The notes beneath the pieces were generated by a model. The model was not told the DNA's origin. It ran no database searches and worked only from the letters and a program-made list of their open reading frames with translations. From assembly GCF_022414595.1 (NCBI RefSeq), contig NZ_JADWYO010000004.1:1-64000 (forward strand): 64,000 nt of DNA, given 5' to 3'. Source of the DNA: Streptomyces sp. MUM 203J. Its GTDB lineage: Bacteria; Actinomycetota; Actinomycetes; Streptomycetales; Streptomycetaceae. Positions 20,154 through 53,319 of this stretch are shown piece after piece. Every line of letters begins with the position of its first letter. Within the stretch, counting starts at the first letter, position 1. Position numbers and translations under genes: made by a program.

Positions 20154-21476
20154 TTACTCCTCCTGCCTTCGGTACATGGCCAGAAGCTCGTTGGTGTACC
20201 CCAGGGCAGGCTGCATGGCCCGAAGTTCCCGGACCCTGAGACCAGGCGGCACGACCGTGACGCGGCTGTCGAACCAGGACAACACCTCCTCCGTCCGCCG
20301 GTGGAACTCCTCCACTGTCGAGGTCCTGAGCATGACCTGGCCGACGCGGGTCGTGGTGTCGGAGATGGACGCGGGCAAGGTCGCTCCCACGGAGTAGGTG
20401 AGCACCGCGTACTCCACATCGGGAAGGCTCATGACCTCCTCGCATGAGGGCACCCTGAAGAGGACGCCAGGCGGCGCCTTGATGTACGTGCTGCCGACAA
20501 TGCCGGGGCTCTCCGTGACGCTGACGTCCGGCCGCTCACCCCGTGCAAGAGAGAGAGCCGCGTCACCGAGATCGACACCGAACTTGCACTCGACCTGCTC
20601 GTGTACGAGGGCACCTCCCCGGCGCGCGGCGCACTCGCTGAAGAAGACTTCACCGTTGTCGTGGAACAACTCCATGTGAAACACGCCGTCGGTCAGGCCC
20701 AGTGCCGCGACGGCCGCCTGGATTACAGGATCGGCCAGCTTGTAGGTCCACGACTCTGTCCCCGGGTCGAATCGCCGTATCTCCAGTGGCGCCTGTACCT
20801 CCACGGCGCGAAGACAAGGCTGTGCGTATTCCGCGACAGAGTAGAAAATCACCTCGCCGTCGTGCACCACCCCGTCGACCAGCCACTCGTCTCCCTCCTG
20901 GAACTCCTCGATGACGAACGTCCGGGCGGAGCGGCTCTGGGAACGGAAGTCCCGGACTGCGTTCCGCAGATCGGCCACGCTGCTCAGGGTGGCGGTCTGG
21001 CGCGTCGCGGCACCCATGACGGGCTTGATGACACAGCGCTCGAAAGGAAGGGCCGAGGGTATGTCGTCATAAAGGTCCTGCACCACTACGGACCGCGCCG
21101 CGGGAATTCCCTGGTGTCGGACCACTTCCTTCTGCACGAATTTGTCGCGGAAGCGTACCGCCACCTCCGGGGCAGGGCCGGAACATCCGAGGACCCGCGC
21201 AAGGGCGGCCGCGTTGACCAGAGCGAATTCATTGGTCGTCGACACCGACGTGAACTGCTCACCGGACAGGCCGGCTCTGGTAAGTGCCGACAGCACCGCT
21301 TCGGGGCTGCGCTCGTCTTCGGTGAAGACCGTGGTCACATTCGCAGACAGACGGGGAATCCCGCTGTCGCGCCAGTTCGGCCCATAGACGAGAACGGCAG
21401 GAGCGTCCCGTCGCTCACACGCGCGCAGCACGTAGCGATCGACTCCCAGGAGCAGAGGGCGCCCGGAGGTGGTCAT
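20154..21476 (-). CDS. ATP-grasp ligase 1
   Basis: This 440-residue ATP-grasp protein has an N-terminal Rossmann-like lobe (LLLGVDRYVLRACERRDAPA) and the central ATP-grasp fold: RFRDKFVQKEVVRHQGIPAA, the ATP-binding lysine in CVIKPVMGAATRQ, and the metal-site region HMELFHDNGEVFFSECAARR. Such enzymes activate a carboxylate as acyl phosphate and join it to an amine. The carboxyl-terminal metal motif reads E-CAARRGG instead of the common E-x-N-x-R. The ATG at 21476 follows AAGGAG and overlaps the MFS stop by 4 nt. It is the distal gene of the leftward operon. Confidence 0.82.
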   Translation of the reverse strand: MTTSGRPLLLGVDRYVLRACERRDAPAVLVYGPNWRDSGIPRLSANVTTVFTEDERSPEAVLSALTRAGLSGEQFTSVSTTNEFALVNAAALARVLGCSGPAPEVAVRFRDKFVQKEVVRHQGIPAARSVVVQDLYDDIPSALPFERCVIKPVMGAATRQTATLSSVADLRNAVRDFRSQSRSARTFVIEEFQEGDEWLVDGVVHDGEVIFYSVAEYAQPCLRAVEVQAPLEIRRFDPGTESWTYKLADPVIQAAVAALGLTDGVFHMELFHDNGEVFFSECAARRGGALVHEQVECKFGVDLGDAALSLARGERPDVSVTESPGIVGSTYIKAPPGVLFRVPSCEEVMSLPDVEYAVLTYSVGATLPASISDTTTRVGQVMLRTSTVEEFHRRTEEVLSWFDSRVTVVPPGLRVRELRAMQPALGYTNELLAMYRRQEE

Positions 21477-22813
21477 GACTTCACTCCTTCCACTGACATG
21501 TCCGCCGACATCACGGGCGCATGACTCGCGGACTGTTCGCTGGGCCGCCGTCCTCCCGCGAGGATCCGCGGCGAGACCCAACCGGTGACCAGGAAGATCG
21601 CTGCGAGCATCAGCCAGCCGGGAGTTCCGAGCCCGAAGCAGAGGACGGCCAGAAGAGCAGGGCCGGCAGTGAGGGCGAGTCCCTGTCCGATCCAGAAGAC
21701 GCCGGCGTATTCCGCCTGCGACTCGTCCGTGGACATCCCGTAGTACACCTCTTGCGAGGCGGCGGCGTGCAACGCCTCACCGATGCTGTGCACCAGGACG
21801 GAGAGCCCGAGGACAATGGTCGCCATGAGCGGGGAAAGCAGGGGCGCGATGACGATCAGCACAACATTGAGGGTGAAGATTACTCCGCTGTGCTTCATTG
21901 CTTTTCCGGCGAGCGGGAGGGACTGGATGCCTCTGCTGATCCGGCTCTGAAGAAGGACGATGAGAACGGTGTTGAGCAGGACGTACCCGGAGGCGAGCCA
22001 TGGCGGAGAACCGATCACTTCGACGGCCCAGAGCGGCATCGCGAACGTGAGCATCGGGTATTGCAGCGCGATAATTCCGTTGAGCACGGTGCCGCGAAGG
22101 AACTGACGATCGCGGAACGCGACCCACTTACGCGTGGTCGGCCGAGCCTCCACCACACCGCCCGCCGACCTGACCGCCAGAAGCACGAAGGCGGAACAGA
22201 CCACGAAGGAAGCAGCGTTGATCAGGTAGATCACCTGGAAGGCGAACAGGGTGTCGACCTTGAGTGCCGCGATGGCGCCGGCGGCGCCCAGCGCCATGCC
22301 GAGGTTGTTAACCACTCGATTTCGCGTCCGGAACCATCGGAGGTGGCCGTTCGACATCTGACGCACCAACGCGGGCCGCGCGACAGCGCTCGCACCGGAT
22401 GTGATGCCGGTTGCCGTGGCGACCACTGTGAAGGTCAGCATGTCGCGGACCTGGGCGAATGCCACCATCGCACCGGCGTAAGCGACGCAGGAGACGATGT
22501 AGAGCAACTTCGCGCCCATGCGGTCGCAGATATACCCGAAGTGGGCCATCATGACCAGCGCGATCGCGGAGCCGATGGTGAAGCCGAGTCCGGCCTCATA
22601 CTCACTGAGTTCCGCATAACGAACCAGGTAGATGGGAGCACTGGCCACGTACAGACCGCTTCCCGTCGCGTTGATCAGGAGCGCGAAGAGCAGTATCTGC
22701 TGCGGCCGAGTAGCTCGATAGGTATCACCGGCGGGTGCCTTCTTCACTCCACTACCACCTGCCACCCCTTTTCTCGAGCCGGGCACCAATGATCTCAAGG
22801 CCTGAAATTCCAT
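21473..22813 (-). CDS. MFS transporter, candidate product exporter
   Basis: This 446-residue major facilitator has helices at QQILLFALLINATGSGLYVA, GFTIGSAIALVMMAHFGYI, LLYIVSCVAYAGAMVAFAQV, FTLNVVLIVIAPLLSPLMA and PALLAVLCFGLGTPGWLML. The loop after helix 2 (YICDRMGAKLL) is a motif-A variant. It sits inside the ATP-grasp operon, 21 bp after ATP-grasp ligase 2 and overlapping ligase 1 by 4 nt. This fits export of the cluster product or a precursor, and self-resistance. Substrate is inferred only from position. Confidence 0.82.
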   Translation of the reverse strand: MEFQALRSLVPGSRKGVAGGSGVKKAPAGDTYRATRPQQILLFALLINATGSGLYVASAPIYLVRYAELSEYEAGLGFTIGSAIALVMMAHFGYICDRMGAKLLYIVSCVAYAGAMVAFAQVRDMLTFTVVATATGITSGASAVARPALVRQMSNGHLRWFRTRNRVVNNLGMALGAAGAIAALKVDTLFAFQVIYLINAASFVVCSAFVLLAVRSAGGVVEARPTTRKWVAFRDRQFLRGTVLNGIIALQYPMLTFAMPLWAVEVIGSPPWLASGYVLLNTVLIVLLQSRISRGIQSLPLAGKAMKHSGVIFTLNVVLIVIAPLLSPLMATIVLGLSVLVHSIGEALHAAASQEVYYGMSTDESQAEYAGVFWIGQGLALTAGPALLAVLCFGLGTPGWLMLAAIFLVTGWVSPRILAGGRRPSEQSASHAPVMSADMSVEGVKS

Positions 22814-22834
22814 TCTCTGATCTCCTGGGCTTGC

Positions 22835-24052
22835 CTACTCGACGATGAATTCCAGGCCACGGTTCAACACTTCTATCTCGCTGGCCAGAACGGCACCATC
22901 TGGACACTCCAATGCGAAATATCCGGCACGTTGCCATGAATTGGAAAAGTCGGGCACCTGCTGTCCGCTCTGCAGATTTACCTCGTAGTCGAAAACGTAC
23001 GGTGAATTCCTCAGAGCCTCTTCCCCGCGCAGTTCGACGAACTTTCCTGCGGGCGGCCGGAAGAACTGCACGGCCGTCACCGATCTCAGGTTGGTCCGCA
23101 AGGCAGGCCGCTGGCCCGCCAGAACGTCGACGAAGGCTTCGTAGAGGTCGACACCCTGGCTGCGCCTGATCAGTTCGGGGATGAGATCCCCCGGGGGCCG
23201 GGCCGCGCATTCGACGAGGTGCGGCACACCGTCGCTGATACGCCATTCCGAATGGAAGACGCCAGACACCACGTCCATCGCGGTAAGCAGCCGGTGCACC
23301 TTGTCCAGGATCAGCCGCCGCTGCCGGTCGTCCACTGGGGCCGGGGTGACGTGTCCGATCTCGGTGAAGTACCGACCGCCCACGGTCCGCTTGGCCGTGA
23401 TGTTCTCAAAGAGCACCTCGCCCCGAAAGACGACACTCTCGACGGAGATCTCCGGACCGTCGATGTACTCCTCGCACTGGTATCTCCAGGCCAGCTCTCT
23501 GCCCACCGTGCGGAAACCCTCACCGGCGGTCGTCATCTCTCGCCAGGCGGACTTGATCTCGTCGATCGTGTCGACGCGTATGACGCCGACCGAGGCGCGG
23601 CGGTTGGAAGGCTTCAGAACGATCGGCCGACCCTCGAAGAAGGCCTTCGCGTCGTCGACGGAAGCCGCCTCGGCATACCTCGGTTGCGCGACTCCGGCCG
23701 CACGCGCGACCTGCCGGAGCAACAGCTTGTCGGTGCAGGCACGAGTGGCGCCGTCGCCCGGTTCGCCGAGCCCCCACTCCCTTGCCAGACCGTAAGCGGG
23801 ACGCACGGCGTATTCCATGCCCGGCAGCACCACGTCGAAGGGGGCATCGGCGTGCCAGGCCCGCGCCACCTGCGCGGCCTCATCACATTGCTGATAGGCG
23901 CCGACCCGCACCTCCTTGATCCAGGGAGCCTTGAAGGCGGTGGGGTTCGCTTCGATGATCTCCGCTTCTTCCAGAACGCAGAGTTCGAGGTCGGGCCTCT
24001 TGCTGACCATGTGGCGAAAGCCACCGTTGAGCCCGATCATGAGTACACGCAT
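22835..24052 (-). CDS. ATP-grasp ligase 2
   Basis: This roughly 405-residue enzyme of carbamoyl-phosphate-synthase/biotin-carboxylase-like type starts with MRVLMIGLNGGFRHMVSK. CTDKLLLRQVARAAGVAQPR precedes the ATP-grasp core, whose lysine is in PIVLKPSNRRASVGV. The second ATP segment is QCEEYIDGPEISVESVVF, and the metal ligands lie around SDGVPHLVECAARPPGDLI. I chose the ATG at 24052, preceded by GAGGAAC. It probably forms an amide bond from a carboxylate. It is not a close paralogue of the other four ligases by eye. Confidence 0.85.
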   Translation of the reverse strand: MRVLMIGLNGGFRHMVSKRPDLELCVLEEAEIIEANPTAFKAPWIKEVRVGAYQQCDEAAQVARAWHADAPFDVVLPGMEYAVRPAYGLAREWGLGEPGDGATRACTDKLLLRQVARAAGVAQPRYAEAASVDDAKAFFEGRPIVLKPSNRRASVGVIRVDTIDEIKSAWREMTTAGEGFRTVGRELAWRYQCEEYIDGPEISVESVVFRGEVLFENITAKRTVGGRYFTEIGHVTPAPVDDRQRRLILDKVHRLLTAMDVVSGVFHSEWRISDGVPHLVECAARPPGDLIPELIRRSQGVDLYEAFVDVLAGQRPALRTNLRSVTAVQFFRPPAGKFVELRGEEALRNSPYVFDYEVNLQSGQQVPDFSNSWQRAGYFALECPDGAVLASEIEVLNRGLEFIVE

Positions 24053-24079
24053 ACGGTTCCTCGCACACGGCAGGGACAA

Positions 24080-24763
24080 TTACTCGTTCTCGGCGCTGGG
24101 CTTCCGGTCGGGAAGGCGCAGCAGCTTGCCTGTCTGCAGGCGTTCCTCGGCCATCGCACGCCAGCGTGTGGCGAGAGCGGGAGCAGCCCGGAGGCGGGGC
24201 AACAGCTCCCGGTCGCCGTAGTAGGCGGTGATCGCCTCGGCCAGCGTCAGGCTCTCGGCGGGTCGGTCGACCAGGTGGATCGCGTCGGTCGCCGAGATCG
24301 ATCCCTGTTCCAGAACGCGCAGATACGCTCCCGGCCGGGCGGCGTGGGCGAACCGCTTCATCCACTGCTCCTCGCCTATCCAGCCGGCGAACATCCGGCA
24401 CGGGATACGCGGTGACGTGATCTGCAGCAGAGTGCTGCCGATGCGCCAGCACTCGCCGATCACCGCGGCATTGACGTCGAAGCCGACCGTCGTAAGGTTC
24501 TCCCCGAACGCGCCGTCAGGGCGCGCTGTGCCCAGGTGATCGGCCCACCACACGTGGTCCTCGGCGGCGTAGGCGTACACGGCCTGGTCGCGCCCGCCGT
24601 GATGCACCTGATCCGCCTGTTCATCACCGGCCAGCCCGCCCCGGGTCACCGCCACGGGCCCGGACACGGGGCGTTTGTCGATGCCGGTGGTGGCCCGCGG
24701 TCCTTCGAATGCGGGTGCTTTCGCGCGGCCGATGCTGACCGACCGCACCTGTCCCAGGATCAC
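24080..24763 (-). CDS. MOSC domain protein
   Basis: This 227-residue MOSC (molybdenum-cofactor sulfurase C-terminal) protein resembles YiiM. Motifs are the GGRDQAVYAYAAEDHVWWAD segment, DGAFGENLTTVGFDVN, and SPRIPCRMFAGW with the conserved cysteine that binds molybdopterin or sulfide in the family. YiiM/YcbX/mARC relatives reduce N-hydroxylated bases and amidoximes. In a cluster with two flavin oxidation systems this could be a tailoring or detoxifying N-oxide reductase. That role is inference. The GTG at 24763 overlaps the FAD oxidoreductase stop by 4 nt. Confidence 0.8.
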   Translation of the reverse strand: MILGQVRSVSIGRAKAPAFEGPRATTGIDKRPVSGPVAVTRGGLAGDEQADQVHHGGRDQAVYAYAAEDHVWWADHLGTARPDGAFGENLTTVGFDVNAAVIGECWRIGSTLLQITSPRIPCRMFAGWIGEEQWMKRFAHAARPGAYLRVLEQGSISATDAIHLVDRPAESLTLAEAITAYYGDRELLPRLRAAPALATRWRAMAEERLQTGKLLRLPDRKPSAENE

Positions 24764-26256
24764 ACGTGCCTCCCGGTACCGACCGGTTCGACGTACGCGC
24801 CGGGGTCAGCGGGGACACCGTGGCGGGCCCGCAACTCCGTTGCTCTCTCCACAACTTCCACGCGGCTCGGCACGTCGGTCATGTAGATCTGGATCGATTC
24901 CGGCTTCGTCCCGGCCGCACCGTCGGCATACCGTCGCGCCAGTGACGCGGGGGTTTCCAGGAGTTGGCTGTAGCGGCGCTTCTGCCACCACTCCTGCTCG
25001 TCGGCCGACGGCAGTTGGAAGGCGATGAAGGCGGGCAGCCGGTCGGGCACCGGGATGGTCGGCGGGACGCGCTCGCCGGCCAGGAGCGCGGACCATCGCC
25101 GTGCTCGGGTGTCGGTGTGCGCCACCGTGTCCTCGTACCAGTCGAGCAGCCAGGGAGTGAGCCGTGCCAGGAACGCCTCGCGTGCGGCGCGGACGTCGTC
25201 GCGGTGCTCGGCAATCGCCTGGGCGAGCCACACGGAGCCGACCGCCGCGACGGACGCCCCGAAGCCGCGGCTCGGATCCGTGGTGGCCAGGGCGTCCCCC
25301 ACCGCGAAGAAGCCGTCCGGCGCGTTCTCGGAGAGCCGACGTACCGTGTTGCGCATGTTCGACATGACCCGTGGCGGGGAGATCGGCAACGACCTTCCCG
25401 CGTCGAACCAGGGGCCGGTCTTCGGTATGGACTCCATGAGCCCTTCGAAGACGCGCGTGTCACGGGCGGACAGCAGCTCCCGGTCACGCGGCGAACAGGC
25501 CAGCACGCCAGAGAACGTGCGGTTGTCGTGGACATTGATCACGGTGTGGTAGCCGTCGCCGATGACGCCCGCGCCGCTGACCCGGGAGAGAGGACCGGGG
25601 TCGGCTCCGTCGGCGAGCCGGTACATACGAGTGATGTAGGCCAGCTCACCCTGATTGTCGCCCACCGTTTCGTACCAGGAGGCCCACGGGGAAGCCCGCC
25701 GACCGGAGGCATCGATCACCACGTCGGCGTCGACGTCGTGCCCGGTGACCCCTACACCCTGCACCCTCCCCCGGGCAACAAGGATCTCGTCCACCGCGGC
25801 GCCCGCGTGCAGCGCGACGCCCGGTTCCCGGGTCAGCCGCCGGCGCAGTACCTGCTCGACCGTGCTGCGCCGGGCCATCAGTACCGCGACGTCCGCACCA
25901 GCCTCAGGAGTGAAACCGTGGTCCGCGGCCATTTTCGCGAAGTCGCCCCGCTCGGCACCTGCGGTGAGCAACTGCGAAAGGACATCCGGCAGTTCGTCGC
26001 GCAGCACCGAGTGGAACGCGCCGAGGAACCCATGTGTCTGGTGCAGATGCGGCACCCCGGCGCGCGGCCAGTCGCCCGCCGCGGACGGGGTGTCCGGCAC
26101 CGTCGATCCGTCCCGTTCGAGGACCGTCACCCGGATGCCTCTGCGGGCGAGGCAGAACGCGGTCAGCATGCCGCCCACGCCCGCACCGATGACAACGGCG
26201 TGCTCCGCTCGCGTGCGATCGAGCCCGTGTGTCGGCATGTTGTATGTGTGGGGCAC
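24760..26256 (-). CDS. FAD-dependent oxidoreductase/monooxygenase
   Basis: This 498-residue flavoprotein of the PHBH/halogenase-like class has the dinucleotide motif VVIGAGVGGMLTAFCLARRG at residues ~20-40, a D-G-type segment in DADVVIDASGRRA, and the second FAD motif FFAVGDALATTDPSRGFGAS at ~315. FAD monooxygenases of this type hydroxylate, epoxidise or N-oxidise. No tryptophan-halogenase WxWxIP motif is visible. It lies mid-operon and overlaps the MOSC gene by 4 nt. Substrate is unknown; a pathway intermediate is likely. Confidence 0.82.
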   Translation of the reverse strand: MPHTYNMPTHGLDRTRAEHAVVIGAGVGGMLTAFCLARRGIRVTVLERDGSTVPDTPSAAGDWPRAGVPHLHQTHGFLGAFHSVLRDELPDVLSQLLTAGAERGDFAKMAADHGFTPEAGADVAVLMARRSTVEQVLRRRLTREPGVALHAGAAVDEILVARGRVQGVGVTGHDVDADVVIDASGRRASPWASWYETVGDNQGELAYITRMYRLADGADPGPLSRVSGAGVIGDGYHTVINVHDNRTFSGVLACSPRDRELLSARDTRVFEGLMESIPKTGPWFDAGRSLPISPPRVMSNMRNTVRRLSENAPDGFFAVGDALATTDPSRGFGASVAAVGSVWLAQAIAEHRDDVRAAREAFLARLTPWLLDWYEDTVAHTDTRARRWSALLAGERVPPTIPVPDRLPAFIAFQLPSADEQEWWQKRRYSQLLETPASLARRYADGAAGTKPESIQIYMTDVPSRVEVVERATELRARHGVPADPGAYVEPVGTGRHV

Positions 26257-26297
26257 CGGTCAGCACCTCCCCGTGAGTCGTGGATGGGCCGTGTGTG

Positions 26298-27515
26298 TCA
26301 CTCGAAGGACAGCGAGGCGTGGAAGGCCCGCGCGGCGTCGACGGCGGTCTCGGCATCGTCGTGACGGGTGATGACCCAGCCCAGGCGGGAGGTGTTCGTC
26401 GCCTGGACCCCGTCCGGGCCGATGTCCTGGATGCCGAAGTCCAGAACGGCCTCGTCCTGGCTCTCCGGCCTTCCGATCCGCCGCACCACACCGTCCGCGG
26501 GCGGGGTGAGATAGCGGATGACGGAGTAGGGGGCGCCGTCCCAAGGACGGTCGGGCAGCGTCACCGGGCGTCCCATCCAGAGCTGCTGGTAGAGGTCGAC
26601 CACGTCGAGCCCCGTCGTCGCCTCGATGAGCAGCCGAATGTCGCCCCCGCCGAGTCGGGGGTTGATCTCCATGAGGGCCGGACGGCCTTCATCGTCGATC
26701 TTGAACTCGACGTGTGCGGCCGTCCCGCGGTGCCCGGTGGCGTCCAGCCACTCCAGCACGGTCTCCTCTGCCAACTTCGCGGTGTCGGGGTCCAGGCGGG
26801 CGGGGAAGACGTGCGCGAGCTCCTTGCACTTCGGCGGCCGACTGAGCAGCGTCTCGGCGAATCCGAGGAGCCGCCAGGCCTGCGCCTGGTCGTCCCACAG
26901 CAGTTCGGCGCTGTACTCCGCACCCTCCACGTACTCCTCAACGAGCACGGCGTCGAGGCAGCGGTATCCCCGTCCGTGTGTGCTGTGGTCGATCGCCGAT
27001 CCCGTCGCCGCCTTGAACTCCTCGTCCGTACGGCAGACCCGCACCCCGGAGCTGGCACTGTCGTCGACCGGCTTGACCACGCACGGGTAGCCGAGGGGAG
27101 AACCGGTCACGGTCCCGTCCACGGGCACCAGGGTGTGCTGGACGTCCCGGCCGATACCGGCGGTGGCCTTCCGGGTCAGGTCCTTGTACCGGCAGTTCAG
27201 GATGCCCACCGGGTCCGGGCCCGGCAGGCCGAGGCTCTGCGCGACCAGCGCGGTCTGGAGGAGGCGGTAGTCGTCGTAGGCGATGACGGCGCGGGGCTGC
27301 AGGGCGCAGACCAGGCGCATGAGCTGGGACGTGTCGTAGGTGTCCACGCACTCGACCGTGTCCACGAGCCGGGTCGGGTCCGGGTCGAGGCGGCTGTATT
27401 CCTGGGGGTCGCGGCAGACCAGGCCGGTCGTCAGCCCCTGCTCCTGGGCCCGACGGATGCCGTGGGTGCCGTAACCGGTGAGATTGACTTCTATGTACAG
27501 CAGATCGGTACTCAT
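26298..27515 (-). CDS. ATP-grasp ligase 3 (paralogue of ligase 5)
   Basis: This 405-residue ATP-grasp ligase begins LLYIEVNLTGYGTHGIRRA. Then come AVIAYDDYRLLQTALVAQSL, the lysine motif GYPCVVKPVDDSASSGVRVC, VLVEEYVEGAEYSAELLWDD, and the metal site AHVEFKIDDEGRPALMEINP followed by RLGGGD (E-x-N-P-R). This is the complete carboxylate-amine ligase signature. The protein is clearly paralogous over its whole length to the product of 31965-33185. The ATG at 27515 overlaps the SDR stop by 4 nt. The pair may perform successive ligations on similar substrates. Confidence 0.88.
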   Translation of the reverse strand: MSTDLLYIEVNLTGYGTHGIRRAQEQGLTTGLVCRDPQEYSRLDPDPTRLVDTVECVDTYDTSQLMRLVCALQPRAVIAYDDYRLLQTALVAQSLGLPGPDPVGILNCRYKDLTRKATAGIGRDVQHTLVPVDGTVTGSPLGYPCVVKPVDDSASSGVRVCRTDEEFKAATGSAIDHSTHGRGYRCLDAVLVEEYVEGAEYSAELLWDDQAQAWRLLGFAETLLSRPPKCKELAHVFPARLDPDTAKLAEETVLEWLDATGHRGTAAHVEFKIDDEGRPALMEINPRLGGGDIRLLIEATTGLDVVDLYQQLWMGRPVTLPDRPWDGAPYSVIRYLTPPADGVVRRIGRPESQDEAVLDFGIQDIGPDGVQATNTSRLGWVITRHDDAETAVDAARAFHASLSFE

Positions 27516-29667: not shown

Positions 29668-29726
29668 CTGGGGCTCCTCAGGGTAGATCGAAAAGTGATG
29701 ATGTGGTCCCGTCGCCGGGACGGATG

Positions 29727-31903: not shown

Positions 31904-31964
31904 GAATCCCCCTCAGATGCTTCCTTGCCGGTCCGATTTTCCTCGATTCAGCATTCGCCCCGCG

Positions 31965-35271: not shown

Positions 35272-35309
35272 CCGTCGCCATGAGGTGCGCCGCCATCCAC
35301 CCAGGGGCC

Positions 35310-36569: not shown

Positions 36570-36656
36570 AGCCATCCCTTTAAGCACGTGGCAACAAGCG
36601 CGATCTCCGGCGAAAACTTCGCCAACCATATTCATCTTCGGCTGCCTCTGCAAGGC

Positions 36657-36686
36657 TTGAGCGGGAAACCGCAGGACCGGTAGGGT
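36657..36686 (+). promoter_or_regulatory. Probable vegetative promoter of the aminotransferase-NRPS operon
   Basis: TTGAGC (36657-36662) and TAGGGT (36681-36686) are separated by 18 nt, close to the Streptomyces consensus TTGACN-N16-18-TAGRRT. This places the start point about 55 nt before the GTG of the aminotransferase gene, which is followed by tightly packed genes as far as 52801. Confidence 0.55.
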
Positions 36687-36746
36687 CACCGCGGCGGCAG
36701 TTCCGAGAACTATGTGCCGAACTGAATTCACAAGGAGTCGGTCCGA

Positions 36747-45633: not shown

Positions 45634-47770
45634 ATCACACGACCTGCGCCCCCGCGCGCTCCCGTCGGCCGCGCGCAGGTCCCCGGTCACCGACGTCCAC
45701 CACGGGGTGTCGATCCAGGACCCGTACCGCTGGACGGAGACGGAGACGGCCGAACTGGGATCCTGGCTCGAAGAGCAATCCCGTTCCTGCGAGGAGTTCC
45801 TGGACACACGGCCAGGACGCAGCGGACTGAGGGAACGCTGTGCCTCCCTCAGTGCCGCCGACGCGCATGTCGTCAACGTGCAGTACGGCGGGGACCATGT
45901 GTTCCTCCTCCGGCGCGACGTCGACGCACCGGTCCATCGCCTCATCGCCCGGCCCCGCTCGGGCGGCGAGGAACGGGTCGTGGTCGATCCGGCCGTACAT
46001 CACACGGTGGACGGGGCCCACCACGTGTCGATCGACTGGTACAACGTCTCCCCCGACGGCCGGTTCGTCGCGTACGGCCTGTCGGCCAACGGTTCGGAAC
46101 TCTCGACGCTGTACGTCGTCGACGCCGTGAACGGAACGCTGCTGCCGGTGTCCCTGCCAGGAGCCGCCACCTCGCGGATGACCCGGCTGCGGCACCCGGG
46201 CATCTCCTGGCACCCGGACTCACGCCGGTTCGTCTACCAGCGCCTCGGCGCCGACTCGGGCCTCGCCAAGTACCAGAACGTGGCTGCCGGGATGTACGAG
46301 ATCGACGCCGGCACCGGCCAGGTCGCCGTGCACCCGCTGAACTACGTGGGCGCCCTCGCCTCCACGCCGGACGACACCCCGGTCGTGACGTTCTCCGGCG
46401 ACGGCCACTGGCTCGTGGTGGGCATCCGTTCCGGCTGCGAGCGCACAGGCACGGTCTACGCCCGTCGTCTCGACGGACCGACGGACGCGTGGCGCAAGGT
46501 GTCCGACGCCGCAATGGCCTGGCATGTGGCGCACGACGAGGCATACGTCCTGGTCCCCGGCGACGACGGCCGCGGCCGGATCGTCGTCGGCCCGCTGGCC
46601 GGCGACGCCCGGCACACGCTCGTCCTCGAGAACGGACCGGTCATCGAGGACTTCTGCGTGCTGGGCGACTCGGTCATGCTCCGCTGCCTCGACGGCGGGT
46701 CCTCCGCCGTCATCCGGCTGCGGCCGTCCACCGGAGAGCGAGCAACCATACGGCTGCCGCACCTGGGCAGCGTCACCGAGTGGGCGCCCGACCCCGTCAC
46801 CGGAGAATGCCTGATCGGGCTGTCGTCATGGACGCACCAGCTGCGCCTGCTGCGGGTGGCCGCCGACTCGGCGGAGTGCGCGGACACCGGCTGGGTGCCT
46901 CCCTCTCCCGTGGAGCGGAACGACGTCACGACGAGCACGGTGACGGTGCTCGCGTCGGACGGTGTCGAGGTTCCCATGACCGTCGTCCACCGCGTGGACC
47001 AGCGGCTCGACGGATCCTCGCCCGCACTGCTGAACGCCTACGGATTCTTCGGCATCACCCTGCGAGCGGCCTTCAACCCGGCGCTGGTCGAATGGGTCGC
47101 GGGCGGCGGGATCTGGGCGACGGGCCACGTACGCGGAGGCGGTGAGGGCGGCGAGCGGTGGGCGCAGGCCGGGCACGGCACCGGGCAGGAACGCACCATC
47201 GCCGACTTCCTCGACTGTGCCGGTCACCTGGTCGACGCCGGCTGGACGTCCACCGACCGACTGGCCGCCGAAGGCACCAGCGCCGGAGGGCTGACCGCTG
47301 CGGGCGCGATGGTCCGCTCGCCGGACCGCTTCGCCGCCGTGGTGCTGCGCGTCCCGGTCACCACGACGCTCCGGCTCGAAATGCACGAGAACGGCCCGCC
47401 CAACATCCCCGAGTACGGAACCGTGACGACTGAGGAGGGCCTTGCCGCCCTGCTCGTCTCCGACGTCTGCCACCGGGTGACCGCGGCCGCCTACCCGCCG
47501 GTCCTCATCACCATGGGGCTGAACGACCCCCGCGTCACCCCCTTCCAGCCCGCCAAGCTCGCGGCCCACCTCCAGCACTCGTCCACCTCCGGGCATCCGG
47601 TGCTGCTGCGCGTGGAGAAGCACGCCGGGCACGGCGTGGGTTCCACCAAGCGCCAACTGGACGACGAGATCGCCGACCGGCTGACCTTCCTGAACGCGGT
47701 CCTCGCCCAACCGGGATCCGTAGCCGCCCAACAACCCGTCCCGCACAGCCAAGGGGAGCGAGAAAAGTGA
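45626..47770 (+). CDS. Prolyl oligopeptidase family (S9) serine peptidase
   Basis: This 714-residue S9 peptidase has an N-terminal beta-propeller domain (HGVSIQDPYRWTETE onwards) and a C-terminal alpha/beta-hydrolase domain. The nucleophile is in EGTSAGGLTAAGAM (family consensus GGSNGG), the Asp in MGLNDPRVTPFQ and the His in KHAGHGVG. No signal peptide is visible, so it acts in the cytoplasm. In the cluster it could remove a protecting peptide from a pro-drug, hydrolyse a shunt product or give self-resistance. It overlaps the NRPS by 8 nt and the SbnB-like gene by 4 nt. Confidence 0.9.
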   Translation: MTESHDLRPRALPSAARRSPVTDVHHGVSIQDPYRWTETETAELGSWLEEQSRSCEEFLDTRPGRSGLRERCASLSAADAHVVNVQYGGDHVFLLRRDVDAPVHRLIARPRSGGEERVVVDPAVHHTVDGAHHVSIDWYNVSPDGRFVAYGLSANGSELSTLYVVDAVNGTLLPVSLPGAATSRMTRLRHPGISWHPDSRRFVYQRLGADSGLAKYQNVAAGMYEIDAGTGQVAVHPLNYVGALASTPDDTPVVTFSGDGHWLVVGIRSGCERTGTVYARRLDGPTDAWRKVSDAAMAWHVAHDEAYVLVPGDDGRGRIVVGPLAGDARHTLVLENGPVIEDFCVLGDSVMLRCLDGGSSAVIRLRPSTGERATIRLPHLGSVTEWAPDPVTGECLIGLSSWTHQLRLLRVAADSAECADTGWVPPSPVERNDVTTSTVTVLASDGVEVPMTVVHRVDQRLDGSSPALLNAYGFFGITLRAAFNPALVEWVAGGGIWATGHVRGGGEGGERWAQAGHGTGQERTIADFLDCAGHLVDAGWTSTDRLAAEGTSAGGLTAAGAMVRSPDRFAAVVLRVPVTTTLRLEMHENGPPNIPEYGTVTTEEGLAALLVSDVCHRVTAAAYPPVLITMGLNDPRVTPFQPAKLAAHLQHSSTSGHPVLLRVEKHAGHGVGSTKRQLDDEIADRLTFLNAVLAQPGSVAAQQPVPHSQGEREK

Positions 47771-48825
47771 AGCCAGACCATATCAGGATCCTCGACCGCG
47801 CCACGGTGACGCGCTGCCTGGCCGAGATCGATCCCGTGAACGTGGTCGAGTCCGCAGTCCGCGCGCACACACTGGGCCAGTCCGACCTGCCTGCCGAGGG
47901 CTACATGGCCTGGGAGAACTCAGCCGGCGCCTACACACGCTCGGTCGCGATGCTCGGATCCGTGCAGCACGGTGAAGGCAGGGCCTACGGCATCAAGCTG
48001 ATCAACGCCTCGGTGACCAATCCCGCCCTGGGCATCGAGCGCGCGGGCGGCTTCACGGTGTTGTTCGATCCCGAGACGGCCCGTCCGGTCACCCTGGTCG
48101 AGGCCGGTCACATCAGTGCGCTGCGCACCGCCTCGTACACGGTGTCCAGTCTGCGCACGCTCGGCCCCGTCGGCTTCGACGCTGTGAGCATCATCGGGTG
48201 CGGCACCCTCGCGGCCATGCATGCGAGGCTGATCGCCCGGTACTTCCCCGCGGTCCGGGACATACACCTGTTCGACATCGACCCCGCCCGGGCCACCGCG
48301 CTCGCCGGCGATCTCACCGCCGACTGCCCGGAGTTGAAGATCACCGAGCACACGGACGCCGAGTCGTGCGTGAAGGCGAGCCACGTGGTCGTCACGCTGA
48401 CGGTCTCCTCCGAGCCGTACATTCCGCCCCACTGGTTCGCGCCCGGGACGTTCATCGCGCATGTGTCGCTCGACGATGTGACGCCGGCCGTGTTCCTGGA
48501 GGCCGATGCGGTCTACGTCGACGACATCGACCTCGTCCGCGACAATCCGCGCCGCATCCTCGGGGCGGTGATGCAGGCAGGTGACGTGGTGGCCGACGCC
48601 GAGGCCGCGGCTGGCCAGGGCCGCGCCCTGGCACGGCGGTACGGAGACGTGCTGCTCGGCCGGGAAGAGGCGATCCGCCCGCGGAACGGCCTCGTGGTGA
48701 GCAACCCCTTCGGCATGGCGATCCTCGACGTGGCCGTCTGCCAGGAGGTGGCCGTACAGGCCGAGGCAGCGGGCCTGGGAGCGGTCGTCGACCTCCTGGG
48801 TGACCGAGACGGGGCAGTCGCGTGA
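47767..48825 (+). CDS. SbnB-like dehydrogenase (ornithine cyclodeaminase family), predicted Dap formation
   Basis: This 352-residue member of the ornithine-cyclodeaminase/mu-crystallin family has LIDPVN-like start segments (AEIDPVNVVESAVRAH), AYGIKLINASVTNPALGIER, the Rossmann motif VSIIGCGTLAAMHARLIARY and the C-terminal DVVADAEAAAGQGRALARRY. SbnB oxidatively cleaves N-(1-amino-1-carboxy-2-ethyl)glutamate to L-2,3-diaminopropionate and 2-oxoglutarate with NAD. The SbnA partner is in the other operon (30911-31903). GTG at 47767 overlaps the peptidase stop. The SbnB assignment over a true ornithine cyclodeaminase rests on this pairing. Confidence 0.82.
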   Translation: MKPDHIRILDRATVTRCLAEIDPVNVVESAVRAHTLGQSDLPAEGYMAWENSAGAYTRSVAMLGSVQHGEGRAYGIKLINASVTNPALGIERAGGFTVLFDPETARPVTLVEAGHISALRTASYTVSSLRTLGPVGFDAVSIIGCGTLAAMHARLIARYFPAVRDIHLFDIDPARATALAGDLTADCPELKITEHTDAESCVKASHVVVTLTVSSEPYIPPHWFAPGTFIAHVSLDDVTPAVFLEADAVYVDDIDLVRDNPRRILGAVMQAGDVVADAEAAAGQGRALARRYGDVLLGREEAIRPRNGLVVSNPFGMAILDVAVCQEVAVQAEAAGLGAVVDLLGDRDGAVA

Positions 48826-48871
48826 GCATGTGGCGGCAGATCCGGACACCGAGGAAACTGGAGGTGAAGCG

Positions 48872-49831
48872 ATGACACACCCCACGTCCGTGCAGGCGGA
48901 AGCCCCACCGCGCGCTCCCCGCAGCCTCATCTCCCTGCACGACCTGGCCCCTGAGGATCTTCAGACGCTTGTCCGCCGCTCGTGCGAGTGGTACGAGGAC
49001 CGGCGCCCGCGGGAACGGCCCCTGCGGGACCGCGTGGTGGGAACGCTGTTCACCCACACCTCGACACGCACCCGGACCGCGTTCACGAGTGGCGCGGTGC
49101 GTCTGGGCGCCACCGTCATCGCCTTCGGGCCGAACGATCTGCAACTCGCCACGGGCGAACGTCTGTCGGACACCGGGCGGATCCTGGGTGGCATGCTCGA
49201 CGCCCTGGTGGTCAGGAGTTCCGTCGGTGAGGACGATCTGCGCGAACTCTCGCGCGCGGCCTCGATCCCCGTCGTCAACGCGATGGTGCGCGAGGAGCAC
49301 CCGACCCAGGGCATCAGCGACATCGCCATGCTCTCCCACCGTTTCGGTTCCCTGCGAGGACTGCACCTCGCCTATCTCGGGGAGGGCAACAACACGGCCG
49401 CGGCCCTGGCGCTCGGCCTGGCGCTGGTTTCCGGGGTCACGCTGACCATCGCGACACCTCCCGGGTACGGGCTCGACCCCACGGTCCTCACCCACGCCCA
49501 GAAGACCGGGGAGGCGTCGGGGAGCGAGATCATCGAAGTACACCGGGTCGACGACATCGACGGTGGTGTTGACGTCGTCTACACCACCCAGTGGCAGACC
49601 ACCGGGACCACCAAGAGCGATCCCGACTGGCGGACGGCGTTCCTGCCGTTCACGGTCGACGAGCACTTGATGGCGCGGTGGCCGGACGCCCTGTTCATGC
49701 ACGACCTGCCGGCCCGCCGCGGCGAGGAGGTCACCAGTTCCGTGCTCGACGGGCCACGGTCGATCGCCTGGGACCAGGCACAGATGAAGCTGGCGAGCGC
49801 GATGGCCGTACTCGACTGGTGCCTGGCATAG
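48872..49831 (+). CDS. Aspartate/ornithine carbamoyltransferase homologue with altered amine-substrate site
   Basis: This 319-residue carbamoyltransferase keeps the carbamoyl-phosphate motifs HTSTRTRTAF and REEHPTQGISD. The ornithine-binding DxxxSMG loop is replaced by VYTTQWQTTG, and the HCLP motif reads MHDLPARRGEEV. These changes argue against ornithine as substrate. In this cluster the likely acceptor is diaminopropionate, giving 3-ureidoalanine (albizziine), as I recall for the carbamoyltransferase of viomycin and capreomycin. The ATG at 48872 follows GGAGGTGA; the longer in-frame GTG at 48800 is less likely. A primary-metabolism argF role is disfavoured by context. Confidence 0.85.
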   Translation: MTHPTSVQAEAPPRAPRSLISLHDLAPEDLQTLVRRSCEWYEDRRPRERPLRDRVVGTLFTHTSTRTRTAFTSGAVRLGATVIAFGPNDLQLATGERLSDTGRILGGMLDALVVRSSVGEDDLRELSRAASIPVVNAMVREEHPTQGISDIAMLSHRFGSLRGLHLAYLGEGNNTAAALALGLALVSGVTLTIATPPGYGLDPTVLTHAQKTGEASGSEIIEVHRVDDIDGGVDVVYTTQWQTTGTTKSDPDWRTAFLPFTVDEHLMARWPDALFMHDLPARRGEEVTSSVLDGPRSIAWDQAQMKLASAMAVLDWCLA

Positions 49832-49895
49832 CTCACCGATCGCGCCCCGATCCAGCCTGACATCCCCTTTTCCATTCCCCGGCCGAGGAGGCCTT

Positions 49896-51035
49896 ATGAG
49901 TTTGTCCGTCAGTGGTGTGCTCCACCACGTCGAGAGCCTCGCGCAACGTCTCGCCTCTCAGCGCCGTCAGCGGTCCGGGGCCAGGGAGCTGTCGGCCGAC
50001 GACTTCGCCGCGGTGGCCGAGACCGGCTTCCATCAGCTGCTGGTCCCGGAGTCGATGGGTGGACTGTGGTCGTCCACCACCCGGTCGACACGGGCGGTGG
50101 CCGAGGCCATCAGCTCCCTCGCCGCCGGCGACAGTTCGCTCGCGCTGATCCTTTCCATGGAGCCGGTCGCGATGTTCGTCACCGGCTGGCTCACCGATTT
50201 CCGTGAGGAGGAGGTCGATGCGGCGTGGCTGCGGCAACGCCAGGAGTACCTCGGCCTCCTGGGGTCCGGCGCCGGGGCCTGGGGCGTCCTTCTCTCCGAG
50301 CGGGACGGCGTGATCCGCAGCACCGCGAAGCAGGACTCCGACGGCAAGTGGTCGATCTCCGGGGCGAAATCCTCGGGAAGCGGCTGGGACCATGTGTCGT
50401 TCATGCTGACCAACGCGGTTGTGGAGGGAGAGGACCGGCCGGAGCTGTTCGTTCTCGACCTGCGGAACCGGGAGAAGCTGCCCGGGGTCACCGTCAGCCG
50501 CGTCTGGGACGGCCTCGGCATGACGGCTTCGGGGAGCCACGCAGTCGTGCTGGACAACGCCCCCGTGCAGCGTGTGACGTGGCCCGGGCGCCAGGAGCTG
50601 ATCAACCGGATGTCGTCCAGCCCGACGATCGGGTCCCGTCTCGCACCGTTCGTCGGCATCGTCCGGGCCGCCGTGGCCGAGGCCACGGAACACGTACGGG
50701 CGCGAGGAGGCACCCGGTCCAGCCTCGAGTCGGTGGAGTGGGCCCGGGCGCAGGCCGCCGGCTGGCTGGTGGAGCAGGCATTCGAGGGTGTGCTCCGCGC
50801 CACGGAGGCCGATACGTCCTCCGAGGACTTCGGGCGCATGGCGCGCGTGGCCAAGCTGGCCGTGAGCGAGCAGGCCGAGCACACCTTGCAGCACATCAGC
50901 AGGGCGCTCGGAGGAATGACCTACTCGCAGAGCTCGCCTTTCGGCTGGTGGCACACGGACGTGCGGGCCATGGCGTTCATCCGGCCGACCCTCGCCACGA
51001 CGGTGGACGACCTGAGCGGCCCGCTCGTCTCCTGA
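49896..51035 (+). CDS. Acyl-CoA-dehydrogenase-like flavoprotein
   Basis: This 379-residue member of the ACAD/group D flavoprotein superfamily starts with an all-alpha domain (AVAETGFHQLLVPESMGG). The middle beta domain includes LLGSGAGAWGVLLSERDG and GLGMTASGSHAVVLDNAPV. The C-terminal helices contain SRALGGMTYSQSSPFGWWHT. Two readings are possible. It may be a desaturase, like VioJ/CmnJ, which I recall as converting ureidoalanine to ureidodehydroalanine. Or it may be the oxygenase of a two-component monooxygenase using the flavin reductase at 52316-52801. The catalytic base cannot be assigned by eye. ATG follows GAGGAGG. Confidence 0.8.
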   Translation: MSLSVSGVLHHVESLAQRLASQRRQRSGARELSADDFAAVAETGFHQLLVPESMGGLWSSTTRSTRAVAEAISSLAAGDSSLALILSMEPVAMFVTGWLTDFREEEVDAAWLRQRQEYLGLLGSGAGAWGVLLSERDGVIRSTAKQDSDGKWSISGAKSSGSGWDHVSFMLTNAVVEGEDRPELFVLDLRNREKLPGVTVSRVWDGLGMTASGSHAVVLDNAPVQRVTWPGRQELINRMSSSPTIGSRLAPFVGIVRAAVAEATEHVRARGGTRSSLESVEWARAQAAGWLVEQAFEGVLRATEADTSSEDFGRMARVAKLAVSEQAEHTLQHISRALGGMTYSQSSPFGWWHTDVRAMAFIRPTLATTVDDLSGPLVS

Positions 51036-51108
51036 CCCCTACCCACCGGAGAACTCAGCCGCGGCGCCGACGCGGCCGAGTTCCGCCCCTCTGCGAGAAA
51101 GCACGACG

Positions 51109-52269
51109 ATGCGCGTTGATGTGTACGAGAGCGTGGACTCCCTGGACACGCGAGCCTGGGACGCGCTGGCGGCCCCCAAGTCCTTCTACATGGGGACGGG
51201 GTGGCTGCGCTTCCAGGAGAAGATGAACCCCGAGCAACGCTGCCGGTTCATCACCGTCTCGGACGGCGGCCGGCTGATCGCCGCTCTCCCCACGTTCCTG
51301 ACCCCCCGCCCGGCCAACAAGCATTACAACGTGGCCGCCATGTTTCCCGGTGCGGTCAGTGACGACACCCCCGTCCTGCTGGTCGGCGGCACGCGGGGCT
51401 ACCAGAGCCGCGTCCTGCTGGATGATGACGTTCTGTCCCCCGAGCAGCGTGGCACCGCCGTAGGCCTGCTGGTCGACCAGGTACAGGCCATGGCCGACCA
51501 GGACGCCGACGGGGTCTCATGGTGGCTCTACTTCTCCGACGAGGACGTGGAACTGCTGCGCCCCTGGGCACAGACCGTCCCCAGGGTGCTGCGCGGTGAC
51601 TGCGCCATCGACCTGCACGGTCAGTCGTTCGAGGACTATCTGGCGACCACCGGCCGACGCCGGCAGATCATGCGGGACCGTCGGCGCTTCGACCGGACCG
51701 GCTACACCGTACGGCGCCGCCCGCTGGGCGAGCGGCTCTCCGTCGCCGGAGACCTGCTGAGCAAGACCCAGAACCGGTATGGTTTCGACGTCTCACCGCA
51801 GTCGATGACCAATCTGCTCAAGGTGCAGAACGAGGCCACCGGGAACACGGGGGTCCTCTACGAGTGCGTCGACGGCGATGAGACCGTCGGCTTCTGTCTG
51901 GCCTACGAAGCCGGCGACACGATCTACGGCAGAGCCGTCGGGTTCGACTACGACCGGCTCCGCGACGGCGCCGAGTACTTCACGCTCGGCTACTACGCCC
52001 CCATCGAGCACGCCTACCAGAGCGGGATGCGACGCCTGCACCTGGGCACATCGGCCTATGAAGCGAAGATTCTGCGCGGCGCCGCGATCACTCCGCTGTG
52101 GGCAACCGCCCTGGGCGCCCGTCCTTGGACGACGGAACAGGCCCGGGATCACAATGCCGCGAAACTGGCTGAGACACGTGCGTCACTGCCTGACGGCCCC
52201 CGTTACGAGGACCGGATCACGTCCAGGATCTGGGACGAGTTCGCCTTCCCCTCCCGCAGCGAGCCGTAG
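51109..52269 (+). CDS. FemAB/GNAT-superfamily acyltransferase
   Basis: This 386-residue protein of the large GNAT/peptidoglycan-biosynthesis FemAB-like type has MRVDVYESVDSLDTRAWDAL at the start, SWWLYFSDEDVELL and SFEDYLATTGRRRQIMRDRR in the middle. A second GNAT-like half follows with TGNTGVLYECVDGDETVGFC, EYFTLGYYAPIEHAYQSGMR and LHLGTSAYEAKILRGA. Relatives transfer acyl or aminoacyl groups, some from aminoacyl-tRNA, to amines. It could acylate an amine of the Dap-derived scaffold. Substrate and donor are unknown. The start at 51109 has only a weak GAGAAAG ribosome site. Confidence 0.75.
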   Translation: MRVDVYESVDSLDTRAWDALAAPKSFYMGTGWLRFQEKMNPEQRCRFITVSDGGRLIAALPTFLTPRPANKHYNVAAMFPGAVSDDTPVLLVGGTRGYQSRVLLDDDVLSPEQRGTAVGLLVDQVQAMADQDADGVSWWLYFSDEDVELLRPWAQTVPRVLRGDCAIDLHGQSFEDYLATTGRRRQIMRDRRRFDRTGYTVRRRPLGERLSVAGDLLSKTQNRYGFDVSPQSMTNLLKVQNEATGNTGVLYECVDGDETVGFCLAYEAGDTIYGRAVGFDYDRLRDGAEYFTLGYYAPIEHAYQSGMRRLHLGTSAYEAKILRGAAITPLWATALGARPWTTEQARDHNAAKLAETRASLPDGPRYEDRITSRIWDEFAFPSRSEP

Positions 52270-52315
52270 AGCAGTCGCATCCGCACGCGGACGGAAGAAC
52301 AGAGCGGAAGGACAG

Positions 52316-52801
52316 ATGCTGGAGCAGCGCTCTTTCAGAGACATCCTGGGCCAGTTCGCGACGGGAGTCGCACTGATCACGGCACAGACCCCGGAAGGTC
52401 CCATGGGCCTTGCCGTCAACTCCTTCACCTCCGTGTCACTGGACCCACCGCTGGTCGCACTGTGCACCGCGCACACCTCGACCACGTGGCCGTCCATCCG
52501 CGCTTCGGGACGCTTCGCCGTGACGATCCTCGGCGACCAGCACGCGGAGCTGTGCCGGACGTTCTCCACGCGCGCCGTCAACCGGTTCTCCGGCCGGAAC
52601 TGGGCCCAGAGCTACGCCGGTCATCCCATCGCGGCGGACGGACTGGCCTGGCTAGACTGCGAGATCTCACAGATCCACCCGGCCGGGGACCACAGCCTGG
52701 TGATCGCCCAGGTGACTGCAGGCGCACTGACGGGACAGATCGGCCCCTTGGTGTTCCATGCTGGGCGGTTTGCCGCGCTGAATGCCTGGCACTCCCGCTG
52801 A
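52316..52801 (+). CDS. Flavin reductase (HpaC/ActVB family)
   Basis: This 161-residue NAD(P)H:flavin oxidoreductase has FRDILGQFATGVALITAQTP, GLAVNSFTSVSLDPPLVALC, FAVTILGDQHAELCRTFS and HSLVIAQVTAGAL. It supplies reduced FMN or FAD to a partner oxygenase. The nearest candidate is the ACAD-like flavoprotein two genes upstream. The ATG at 52316 follows GGAAGGA. It is the last intact gene of the rightward operon; degenerate DNA follows. Confidence 0.9.
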   Translation: MLEQRSFRDILGQFATGVALITAQTPEGPMGLAVNSFTSVSLDPPLVALCTAHTSTTWPSIRASGRFAVTILGDQHAELCRTFSTRAVNRFSGRNWAQSYAGHPIAADGLAWLDCEISQIHPAGDHSLVIAQVTAGALTGQIGPLVFHAGRFAALNAWHSR

Positions 52802-53277: not shown

Positions 53278-53319
53278 GGCGGCGGGCGGTTCGGCGTGAG
53301 CGGCGCGGCACGTTGGCCA

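Follow-up and report, generated by a model that had tools for sequence, protein, structure and literature searches.

Transcarbamylases that act on diaminopropionate (Dap) or diaminobutyrate (Dab) are marked by HDLP and by (T/S)RWQTTG or TRWQSMG (PMC4581275; PMC6022934), and these two papers assign the TTG and SMG motifs to the Dap and Dab enzymes in opposite ways. Among the heterocyclization (Cy) domains of nonribosomal peptide synthetases (NRPSs), a helper Gln can replace the catalytic Thr in PchE (PMC8807600); in azaserine biosynthesis, the Cy domain of AzsO has Asn in both positions of the dyad and makes an ester, and a Cys-predicted adenylation (A) domain loads Ser (PMC10445470). The aspartates of the Cy motif DxxxxD are given a structural role in PMC9547227. 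Here, we analyzed a window of 64,000 nucleotides from Streptomyces sp. MUM 203J (positions 1 to 64,000 of contig NZ_JADWYO010000004.1, which measures 202,625 bases in a genome of 6.4 Mb), in which a 24-gene biosynthetic cluster holds a carbamoyltransferase with Dap-transcarbamylase motifs, an NRPS with an altered Cy domain and five ATP-grasp ligases. We consider it somewhat probable (about 55%) that its two divergent arms form one cluster making a small peptide, in which ATP-grasp ligases would link beta-ureidoalanine to a short product of the NRPS.

That the two arms serve one pathway, as the original prediction had proposed, was well supported by gene content in other genomes. All 24 genes were found on a single contig (C86, 61,352 bases) of S. 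fulvoviolaceus with 69-89% identity (best copy of each), and the two divergent arms were retained there. A genome that is probably a Lentzea (G1081) carried 13 of the 24 in one block, with 39-59% identity and no other called gene in between, and ATPg1, SbnA and the carbamoyltransferase gene were grouped in three more Streptomyces.

Genes were called with a codon model and assigned to families by Pfam and NCBIfam profile cut-offs. The left arm (20154-33209) consisted of 11 leftward genes, adjoining ones of which overlapped or lay at most 103 bp apart, and all five of its predicted ATP-grasp ligases passed the ATP-grasp_4 cut-off of 27 bits. The right arm (33608-52801) contained the expected NRPS, carbamoyltransferase, FemAB-like and flavin reductase genes, but it was not rightward throughout, the ThrC-like gene inside it lying on the minus strand; this gene runs against its neighbours in the Lentzea block as well. 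MFS0, convergent with the left arm, is outside the range 20154-52801 first given for the cluster, yet it is kept with the cluster in relatives. No promoter or terminator was found in a scan of the divergent region. The genes are listed below with window coordinates and strand.

18876-20111, plus: MFS0, MFS transporter and likely exporter (MFS_1, 171.4 bits), beside the cluster in S. fulvoviolaceus and the probable Lentzea
20154-21476, minus: ATPg5, ATP-grasp ligase-like (ATP-grasp_4, 37.8 bits), 69% identity in S. fulvoviolaceus, absent from the Lentzea block
21473-22747, minus: second MFS transporter (MFS_1, 62.5 bits)
22835-24079, minus: ATPg4, ATP-grasp ligase with LAL_C2 domain (ATP-grasp_4, 67.4 bits; LAL_C2, 43.7 bits)
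24080-24763, minus: MOSC protein (Pfam MOSC, 110.8 bits)
24760-26256, minus: FAD monooxygenase, nearest solved relatives the epoxidases MonCI and Lsd18
26298-27515, minus: ATPg3, ATP-grasp ligase (ATP-grasp_4, 81.6 bits), 44% identity to ATPg1
27512-28540, minus: NAD-dependent epimerase/SDR-like protein (Pfam Epimerase, 51.5 bits), ATG start
28540-29667, minus: SacDH, NAD(P) oxidoreductase with a modelled lactate/malate dehydrogenase fold, core gene
29727-30914, minus: ATPg2, ATP-grasp ligase with LAL_C2 domain (ATP-grasp_4, 52.0 bits; LAL_C2, 61.3 bits)
30911-31861, minus: SbnA, first Dap-supply enzyme (TIGR03945, 390.6 bits against a cut-off of 349.95), one TTA codon, core gene
31965-33209, minus: ATPg1, core ATP-grasp ligase (ATP-grasp_4, 69.7 bits), adjoining SbnA in relatives
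33608-34456, plus: class II (FBA-type) aldolase (Pfam F_bP_aldolase, 198.6 bits; best NCBIfam score 153.7 against 343.05), core gene
34441-35271, plus: HAD1, HAD phosphatase-like (Pfam), core gene
35310-36464, minus: ThrC-like pyridoxal phosphate (PLP) enzyme (PALP, 257 bits), core gene
36747-38351, plus: GntC-like PLP enzyme of a rare family (NCBIfam; 58 relatives at E<=1e-20), core gene
38348-39208, plus: HAD2, HAD-IIA phosphatase-like (Pfam, NCBIfam), core gene
39205-45633, plus: NRPS with a condensation (C) remnant, A1, thiolation (T), Cy, A2, T and thioesterase (TE) domains (Pfam, alignments, codes by eye)
45626-47770, plus: prolyl oligopeptidase (Peptidase_S9, 140.9 bits), core gene
47767-48825, plus: SbnB-like dehydrogenase (TIGR03944, 217.1 bits against a cut-off of 326.9), core gene
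48872-49831, plus: carbamoyltransferase with Dap-transcarbamylase motifs (STRTR, HPTQ, TQWQTTG, HDLP), core gene
49896-51035, plus: ACAD-fold protein, nearest solved relatives nitrososynthases (best NCBIfam match SfnB, 50.1 against 430.9 bits)
51109-52269, plus: FemAB/GNAT-like acyltransferase (PF13480, 42.0 bits; PF04339, 36.3 bits)
52316-52801, plus: flavin reductase (Flavin_Reduct, 135.3 bits, on the enclosing open reading frame)

The Lentzea genome was the one match of a search with the GntC-like protein over 297 genomes of the Saccharothrix family. Its genes were ordered aldolase, HAD1, ThrC-like (reversed), GntC-like, HAD2, NRPS, prolyl oligopeptidase, SbnB-like, carbamoyltransferase, ATPg1, SbnA, SacDH and MFS0; because the left-arm ATPg1, SbnA and SacDH join right-arm genes there, the arms are one unit in this genome. 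The 11 genes lacking from the block were ATPg2 to ATPg5 and those of the SDR, FAD monooxygenase, MOSC, second MFS, ACAD-fold, FemAB-like and flavin reductase proteins. Two proteins without a Pfam match (the second only in part) followed MFS0, with NRPS genes beyond. A scan with the carbamoyltransferase over 84,980 species, each represented by one genome, gave 83 relatives, 80 of which were kept, and five had at least 54% identity. ATPg1, SbnA and the carbamoyltransferase gene were adjacent in S. milbemycinicus and Streptomyces NBS 14/10, as were ATPg1, SbnA, the SbnB-like gene and the carbamoyltransferase gene in S. colonosanans (80-86% identity); this NRPS was absent from the fetched stretches of all three. 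The independent occurrence of the leftward operon and the NRPS genes was thus seen in part only, for the ATPg1-SbnA-carbamoyltransferase unit.

An indirect tie between the arms came from contig sizes. Nine longest-contig sizes were common to the right-arm GntC-like family (58 proteins) and the left-arm SacDH family (120 listed of 415 proteins), and eight of the 19 GntC-like proteins on contigs of at least 30 kb shared their contig size with listed SacDH proteins. In genome sets that are samples of larger groups, the ACAD-fold protein was met in one of 293 genomes of the order (E<=1e-20) and the GntC-like protein in one of 396 genomes of the phylum (E<=1e-60), the window's own in both cases, and ATPg1 in three of 392 genomes of the genus (E<=1e-60), its own and two distant ones. 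No match to the cluster was found in a plasmid collection, where the GntC-like protein met distant aminotransferases only and a plasmid of Streptomyces sp. NBC_00557 carried one ATPg5-like gene with an NRPS gene about 7 kb off. Among the open-licence PubMed Central papers listed (in one search 8 of 6,667) there was none on such a cluster or a matching product, on the aldolase/ThrC combination or on the code 'DIWQ'.

The centre of the S. fulvoviolaceus cluster (C86, 22559-34754) was rearranged. The ACAD-fold gene beside its carbamoyltransferase gene reads in three frames, which could reflect sequencing errors, and the flavin reductase gene was not found in that part of the contig. A second ACAD-FemAB-reductase set (88, 89 and 79% identity) without frame breaks was located between the arms, where a transposase-like stretch (by eye) and truncated pieces of the aldolase and ATPg1 genes were also seen.

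The halves of Dap synthesis had been predicted to be split between the operons; SbnA indeed stands in the left arm and passes its curated cut-off, whereas its SbnB-like counterpart in the right arm does not. In S. colonosanans the SbnB-like gene adjoined SbnA, and the probable Lentzea had both within one block. The carbamoyltransferase and six of the six closest relatives examined carried STRTR and HPTQ (the SxRTR and HPxQ carbamoyl-phosphate motifs), and all of them had HDLP instead of HCLP. HDLP alone was insufficient as a mark, because two of three Chloroflexota relatives with the SMG motif of ornithine carbamoyltransferase (OTC) showed it as well. The window protein scored below the OTC cut-off (TIGR00658, 238.9 against 280.85 bits) and had no DxxxSMG or HCLP, and Arg was kept (TRWQTTG) in the probable Lentzea and Saccharothrix carbamoyltransferases. 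Because of its HDLP and TxWQTTG motifs, the enzyme likely converts Dap to beta-ureidoalanine; it would work like a Dap transcarbamylase, though we do not file it as one. The forecast of a product derived from Dap or ureidoalanine fits these motifs. The Saccharothrix locus was also considered as a capreomycin cluster, and this was dropped since its neighbours (two TauD-type proteins, a halogenase, a second FAD protein of the Trp_halogenase type and an acyl-CoA dehydrogenase) did not suggest it.

The aldolase, HAD1, HAD2, ThrC-like and GntC-like genes formed a conserved five-gene set, which likely builds a second unusual amino acid, perhaps an undescribed one. Out of 5.8 billion proteins, 7,998 candidates were scored, and 58 of them belonged to the GntC-like family at E<=1e-20; five of the 58 were fused to HAD domains, which links the GntC-like PLP enzyme with HAD phosphatases of the kind of HAD2. 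The GntC-like protein was under the cut-offs of both GntC (104.1 against 415) and VioD (54.2 against 390.9). The ThrC-like protein narrowly passed one threonine synthase model (TIGR00260, 170.8 against 167.1) and missed another (NF006050, 261.5 against 303).

The NRPS begins with a C-domain remnant, as read by eye; Pfam recognized one Condensation domain only, the Cy. The A1 code, DIWQVTTDDK (by eye), was identical in the probable Lentzea at the seven positions compared and to our knowledge has no match. The A2 code, DLYNLSMIWK (by eye), which we take to be close to Cys codes, showed Trp for Tyr and Leu for Met among these positions in the probable Lentzea. When the Cy domain was aligned with EpoB, BmdB, FmoA3 and Irp2, the catalytic Asp and helper Gln (LDHQ) were found to be kept in the window, S. 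fulvoviolaceus and the probable Lentzea. The catalytic Thr was replaced by Ala (VVFAS for VVFTS) in seven of seven family members compared, and the first Asp of DxxxxD was Gly, Ala or Ser in the same seven (Gly in the window, Ser in Lentzea), with the second Asp kept.

In order to place these changes, 120 listed of 6,996 NRPS relatives and the Lentzea protein were surveyed. From 293 domain hits, 254 domains of at least 350 residues were aligned (39 shorter ones were dropped), and 193 were of the Cy type, with a first motif position other than His. At the positions of the catalytic Thr and the first DxxxxD Asp, 118 had Thr and Asp, 28 Asn and Asp, 19 Ala and Asp, and 15 Ala with another residue. 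Seven of these 15 belonged to this NRPS family (window, S. fulvoviolaceus, Lentzea and four of similar size), and six of the remainder were the second Cy of hybrids of polyketide synthase and NRPS, in which Thr and both Asp are retained by the first Cy; the two hybrids inspected (P0078 and P0106) ended in a TE domain. The Thr-to-Ala change was rejected as proof of a dead Cy domain, in view of the 19 domains with Ala and a normal DxxxxD and of the compensating Gln of PchE.

The LAL_C2 cut-off (29.4 bits) was exceeded by ATPg2 and ATPg4, and ATPg5 (28.4), ATPg3 (24.9) and ATPg1 (24.6) fell short of it. Apart from the pair ATPg1 and ATPg3, the five shared 18-27% identity. ATPg1 and SbnA were neighbours in the probable Lentzea and also in S. 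milbemycinicus, S. colonosanans and NBS 14/10. Extension of the product by ATP-grasp amide bonds, as first proposed, would follow from membership of this family.

Two of the names carried by putative tailoring proteins were reconsidered. 'Saccharopine dehydrogenase' agrees with a passed profile (PF03435, 28.0 against 25.1 bits) and with the saccharopine dehydrogenase 4ina as second PDB profile match (E 0.033), but the structural model of SacDH points instead to a lactate/malate dehydrogenase fold, its best structural matches, although it could belong to another family not listed. An earlier model, built from 3 sequences, reached a pLDDT of 51.9, which was poor, and was not used. SacDH had 415 relatives at E<=1e-10; the 120 listed were mostly nameless or 'hypothetical protein' and included some from Deltaproteobacteria. 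In 77 aligned sequences N143, P147, D148, N167, N170 and H275 were invariant, and H202, His in 70 of them and Ser in the Lentzea protein, is a candidate catalytic His by sequence position only. The 'ACAD-like' label gave way to that of a likely N-oxygenase, the nearest solved relatives being the nitrososynthases 3m9v, 4kcf, 4zxv (DnmZ) and 3mxl (E 5e-15 to 1e-13). The flavin reductase, whose gene follows after the FemAB-like gene, is likely its partner; as a difference from those nitrososynthases, no deoxysugar genes were recognized among the 24. The MOSC protein was related to 6-hydroxyaminopurine reductase, under the cut-off (NF008577, 101.5 against 294). The FemAB-like protein, possibly aminoacyl-tRNA dependent, had no PDB sequence match at E<=0.1.

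In the pathway we propose, SbnA and the SbnB-like enzyme, one from each arm, would supply L-Dap, and the carbamoyltransferase would turn it into beta-ureidoalanine. The aldolase, HAD1, ThrC-like, GntC-like and HAD2 proteins, whose genes stay together, would make a second amino acid that is loaded by A1. A2 would load Cys (or Ser), the altered Cy would couple both, perhaps without a ring, and the TE would free the dipeptide, to which ATPg1 would join ureidoalanine; the LDH-fold enzyme SacDH and the prolyl oligopeptidase may tailor or process it. The 13-gene core of this scheme is contiguous in the probable Lentzea. In the Streptomyces version, ATPg2 to ATPg5 and the FemAB-like protein would lengthen the peptide by other residues. 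The N-oxygenase pair (ACAD-fold protein and flavin reductase), the MOSC protein, the epoxidase-like flavoprotein and the SDR-like protein would decorate the product, which the MFS proteins would export. The predicted product is thus an undescribed small peptide that would hold ureidoalanine and, likely, another unusual amino acid. We put forward only tentatively, at odds below even, the full hybrid, in which the amino acid of the five-gene route is coupled with Cys or Ser, no ring being closed, and beta-ureidoalanine and other residues are added off-line by as many as five ATP-grasp ligases.

Several points weigh against this scheme. Every reaction, substrate, coupling order, the product and its role are predicted from sequence, including the acids and amines that the ATP-grasp enzymes would use; the A-domain codes were read by eye, and their meanings are putative. 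The SbnB-like protein lies below the cut-off of TIGR03944, although this is its best family, and the loci fetched from S. milbemycinicus and NBS 14/10 showed no SbnB. The carbamoyltransferases of the window and four Streptomyces relatives read TQWQTTG, with Gln for Arg, and so depart from (T/S)RWQTTG. The ThrC-like protein may be an ordinary threonine synthase, not part of the new amino acid route, because it narrowly passes TIGR00260. Downstream of the Lentzea block there are more NRPS genes and P450-like ones (the latter by eye). The ATPg1-SbnA-carbamoyltransferase unit occurs also where this NRPS is missing, and ureidoalanine may therefore not feed this synthetase in every case. This last finding, with the absence of ATPg2 to ATPg5, SDR, MOSC and FAD monooxygenase from the Lentzea block, would suit two neighbouring pathways, with an ATP-grasp peptide of its own for the left operon and a separate NRPS product for the right arm. 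Such a division is very unlikely and was rejected as the leading explanation, since the probable Lentzea joins left-arm ATPg1, SbnA and SacDH directly to the right arm and S. fulvoviolaceus keeps every gene of both; SbnA and SbnB are moreover split between the arms.

Gene order is silent on the A1 substrate and the A1 code has no match known to us, and A1 might then load Dap or beta-ureidoalanine, with the aldolase-GntC-like-ThrC-HAD set making the partner of an ATP-grasp ligase. We judged this unlikely: ATPg1 travels with SbnA and the carbamoyltransferase even without the NRPS, which fits ATPg1, not A1, as the user of ureidoalanine, and in the window the HAD2 gene overlaps that of the NRPS. 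A Cys-derived thiazoline, formed by the NRPS in the usual way and extended by ATP-grasp ligases, was the product of the original prediction; such a ring, though possible, appears doubtful because the catalytic Thr and the first DxxxxD Asp are lost in all seven family members. The A2 code is Cys-like, Ala at the Thr position is by itself not rare (19 of 193 with a normal DxxxxD), and a ring could still form because the catalytic Asp and the helper Gln are kept, the latter standing in for Thr in PchE (PMC8807600). Yet only 15 of the 193 pair Ala with a residue other than Asp, seven of them in this family, the NRPS has no oxidase domain for a thiazole (Pfam), and, as AzsO illustrates, a module predicted for Cys whose Cy is altered can load Ser and form an ester (PMC10445470). 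We prefer coupling of ureidoalanine to a short NRPS product, perhaps without a ring.

Further observations concern regulation and neighbouring DNA. In Streptomyces, TTA codons can place genes under bldA control; one was found in each arm, in SbnA (codon 87) and in the aldolase gene (codon 4, if its start is 33608), and both arms could be under this control. Just downstream of the cluster (53261-54210, plus strand) lies a broken remnant of a second isoleucyl-tRNA synthetase (IleRS), with 75-76% identity to the intact IleRS of the genome, stop codons and a frame change. Its reading as a lost self-resistance gene was rejected: S. fulvoviolaceus had one strong IleRS match only, and the two of the probable Lentzea (62 and 42%) were not on the cluster contig. 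An 842-aa protein beside the cluster (56369-58897, plus strand), with a Mu-type transposase C-terminal domain and a TniB-like AAA ATPase, is possibly the trace of a Tn7-like or Tn5053-like element. In S. milbemycinicus (L002, 3221-12525) and NBS 14/10 (L004), a compact cluster was seen with an A-T-C NRPS, P450, ATPg1, SbnA, carbamoyltransferase and MFS genes; in S. milbemycinicus, where alone the domains were checked, the NRPS and P450 genes are upstream of ATPg1, SbnA and the carbamoyltransferase gene. It is possibly a minimal ureidoalanine-peptide pathway. Two loci with ATPg1-like genes of 40 and 37% identity (G933:C1 787318-792963 and G923:C118 32001-49655) were set aside as different clusters. 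They hold a row of PhyH, SbnA-like PLP, ATPg1-like, glutathione-synthetase-like and weakly permuted-ATP-grasp-like proteins, with domains checked in G933 (the last resemblance being under the Pfam cut-off there); in G923 a three-module NRPS with a TE stands beside genes similar to this row.

The cluster unites two ways of forming amides, by NRPS and by ATP-grasp ligase, within a single conserved gene set, and its small form in the probable Lentzea and large form in Streptomyces make core and decoration separable by comparison. The rare aldolase/PLP/HAD set is a likely route to a so far undescribed amino acid, and the altered Cy domain offers a natural test of the residues separating coupling from ring closure. 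S. fulvoviolaceus NRRL B-2870, in which all genes are present, could serve for metabolite work.

Among known systems, dapdiamide-type peptides have ATP-grasp ligases in a Dap pathway, as here; unlike them, this cluster has a carbamoyltransferase and a two-module NRPS, and ATPg1 was far under the cut-off of the dapdiamide A synthase DdaF, the one NCBIfam model tested (NF041595, 20.6 against 840 bits). We know of no ATP-grasp ligases and aldolase set in tuberactinomycin or zwittermicin clusters, and a tuberactinomycin-like cluster was rejected because the PLP enzyme here is far under the VioD cut-off. The tuberactinomycins (viomycin, capreomycin) and zwittermicin A (ZmaTUV) resemble it in that Dap supply is followed by an HDLP carbamoyltransferase with Thr for the OTC Asp (PMC4581275, PMC6022934 and PMC9586298). 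The azaserine cluster differs in its hydrazine genes, none of which were recognized among the 24 here, and AzsO keeps both DxxxxD Asp and has Asn at both dyad positions, whereas here Ala stands for Thr, the catalytic Asp is kept and the first DxxxxD Asp is lost. Like the NRPS described here, AzsO is small, with a Cy altered at the catalytic Thr and a Cys-like A domain, and the azaserine cluster likewise contains proteins that carry a saccharopine dehydrogenase annotation, together with an ATP-grasp protein (PMC10445470).

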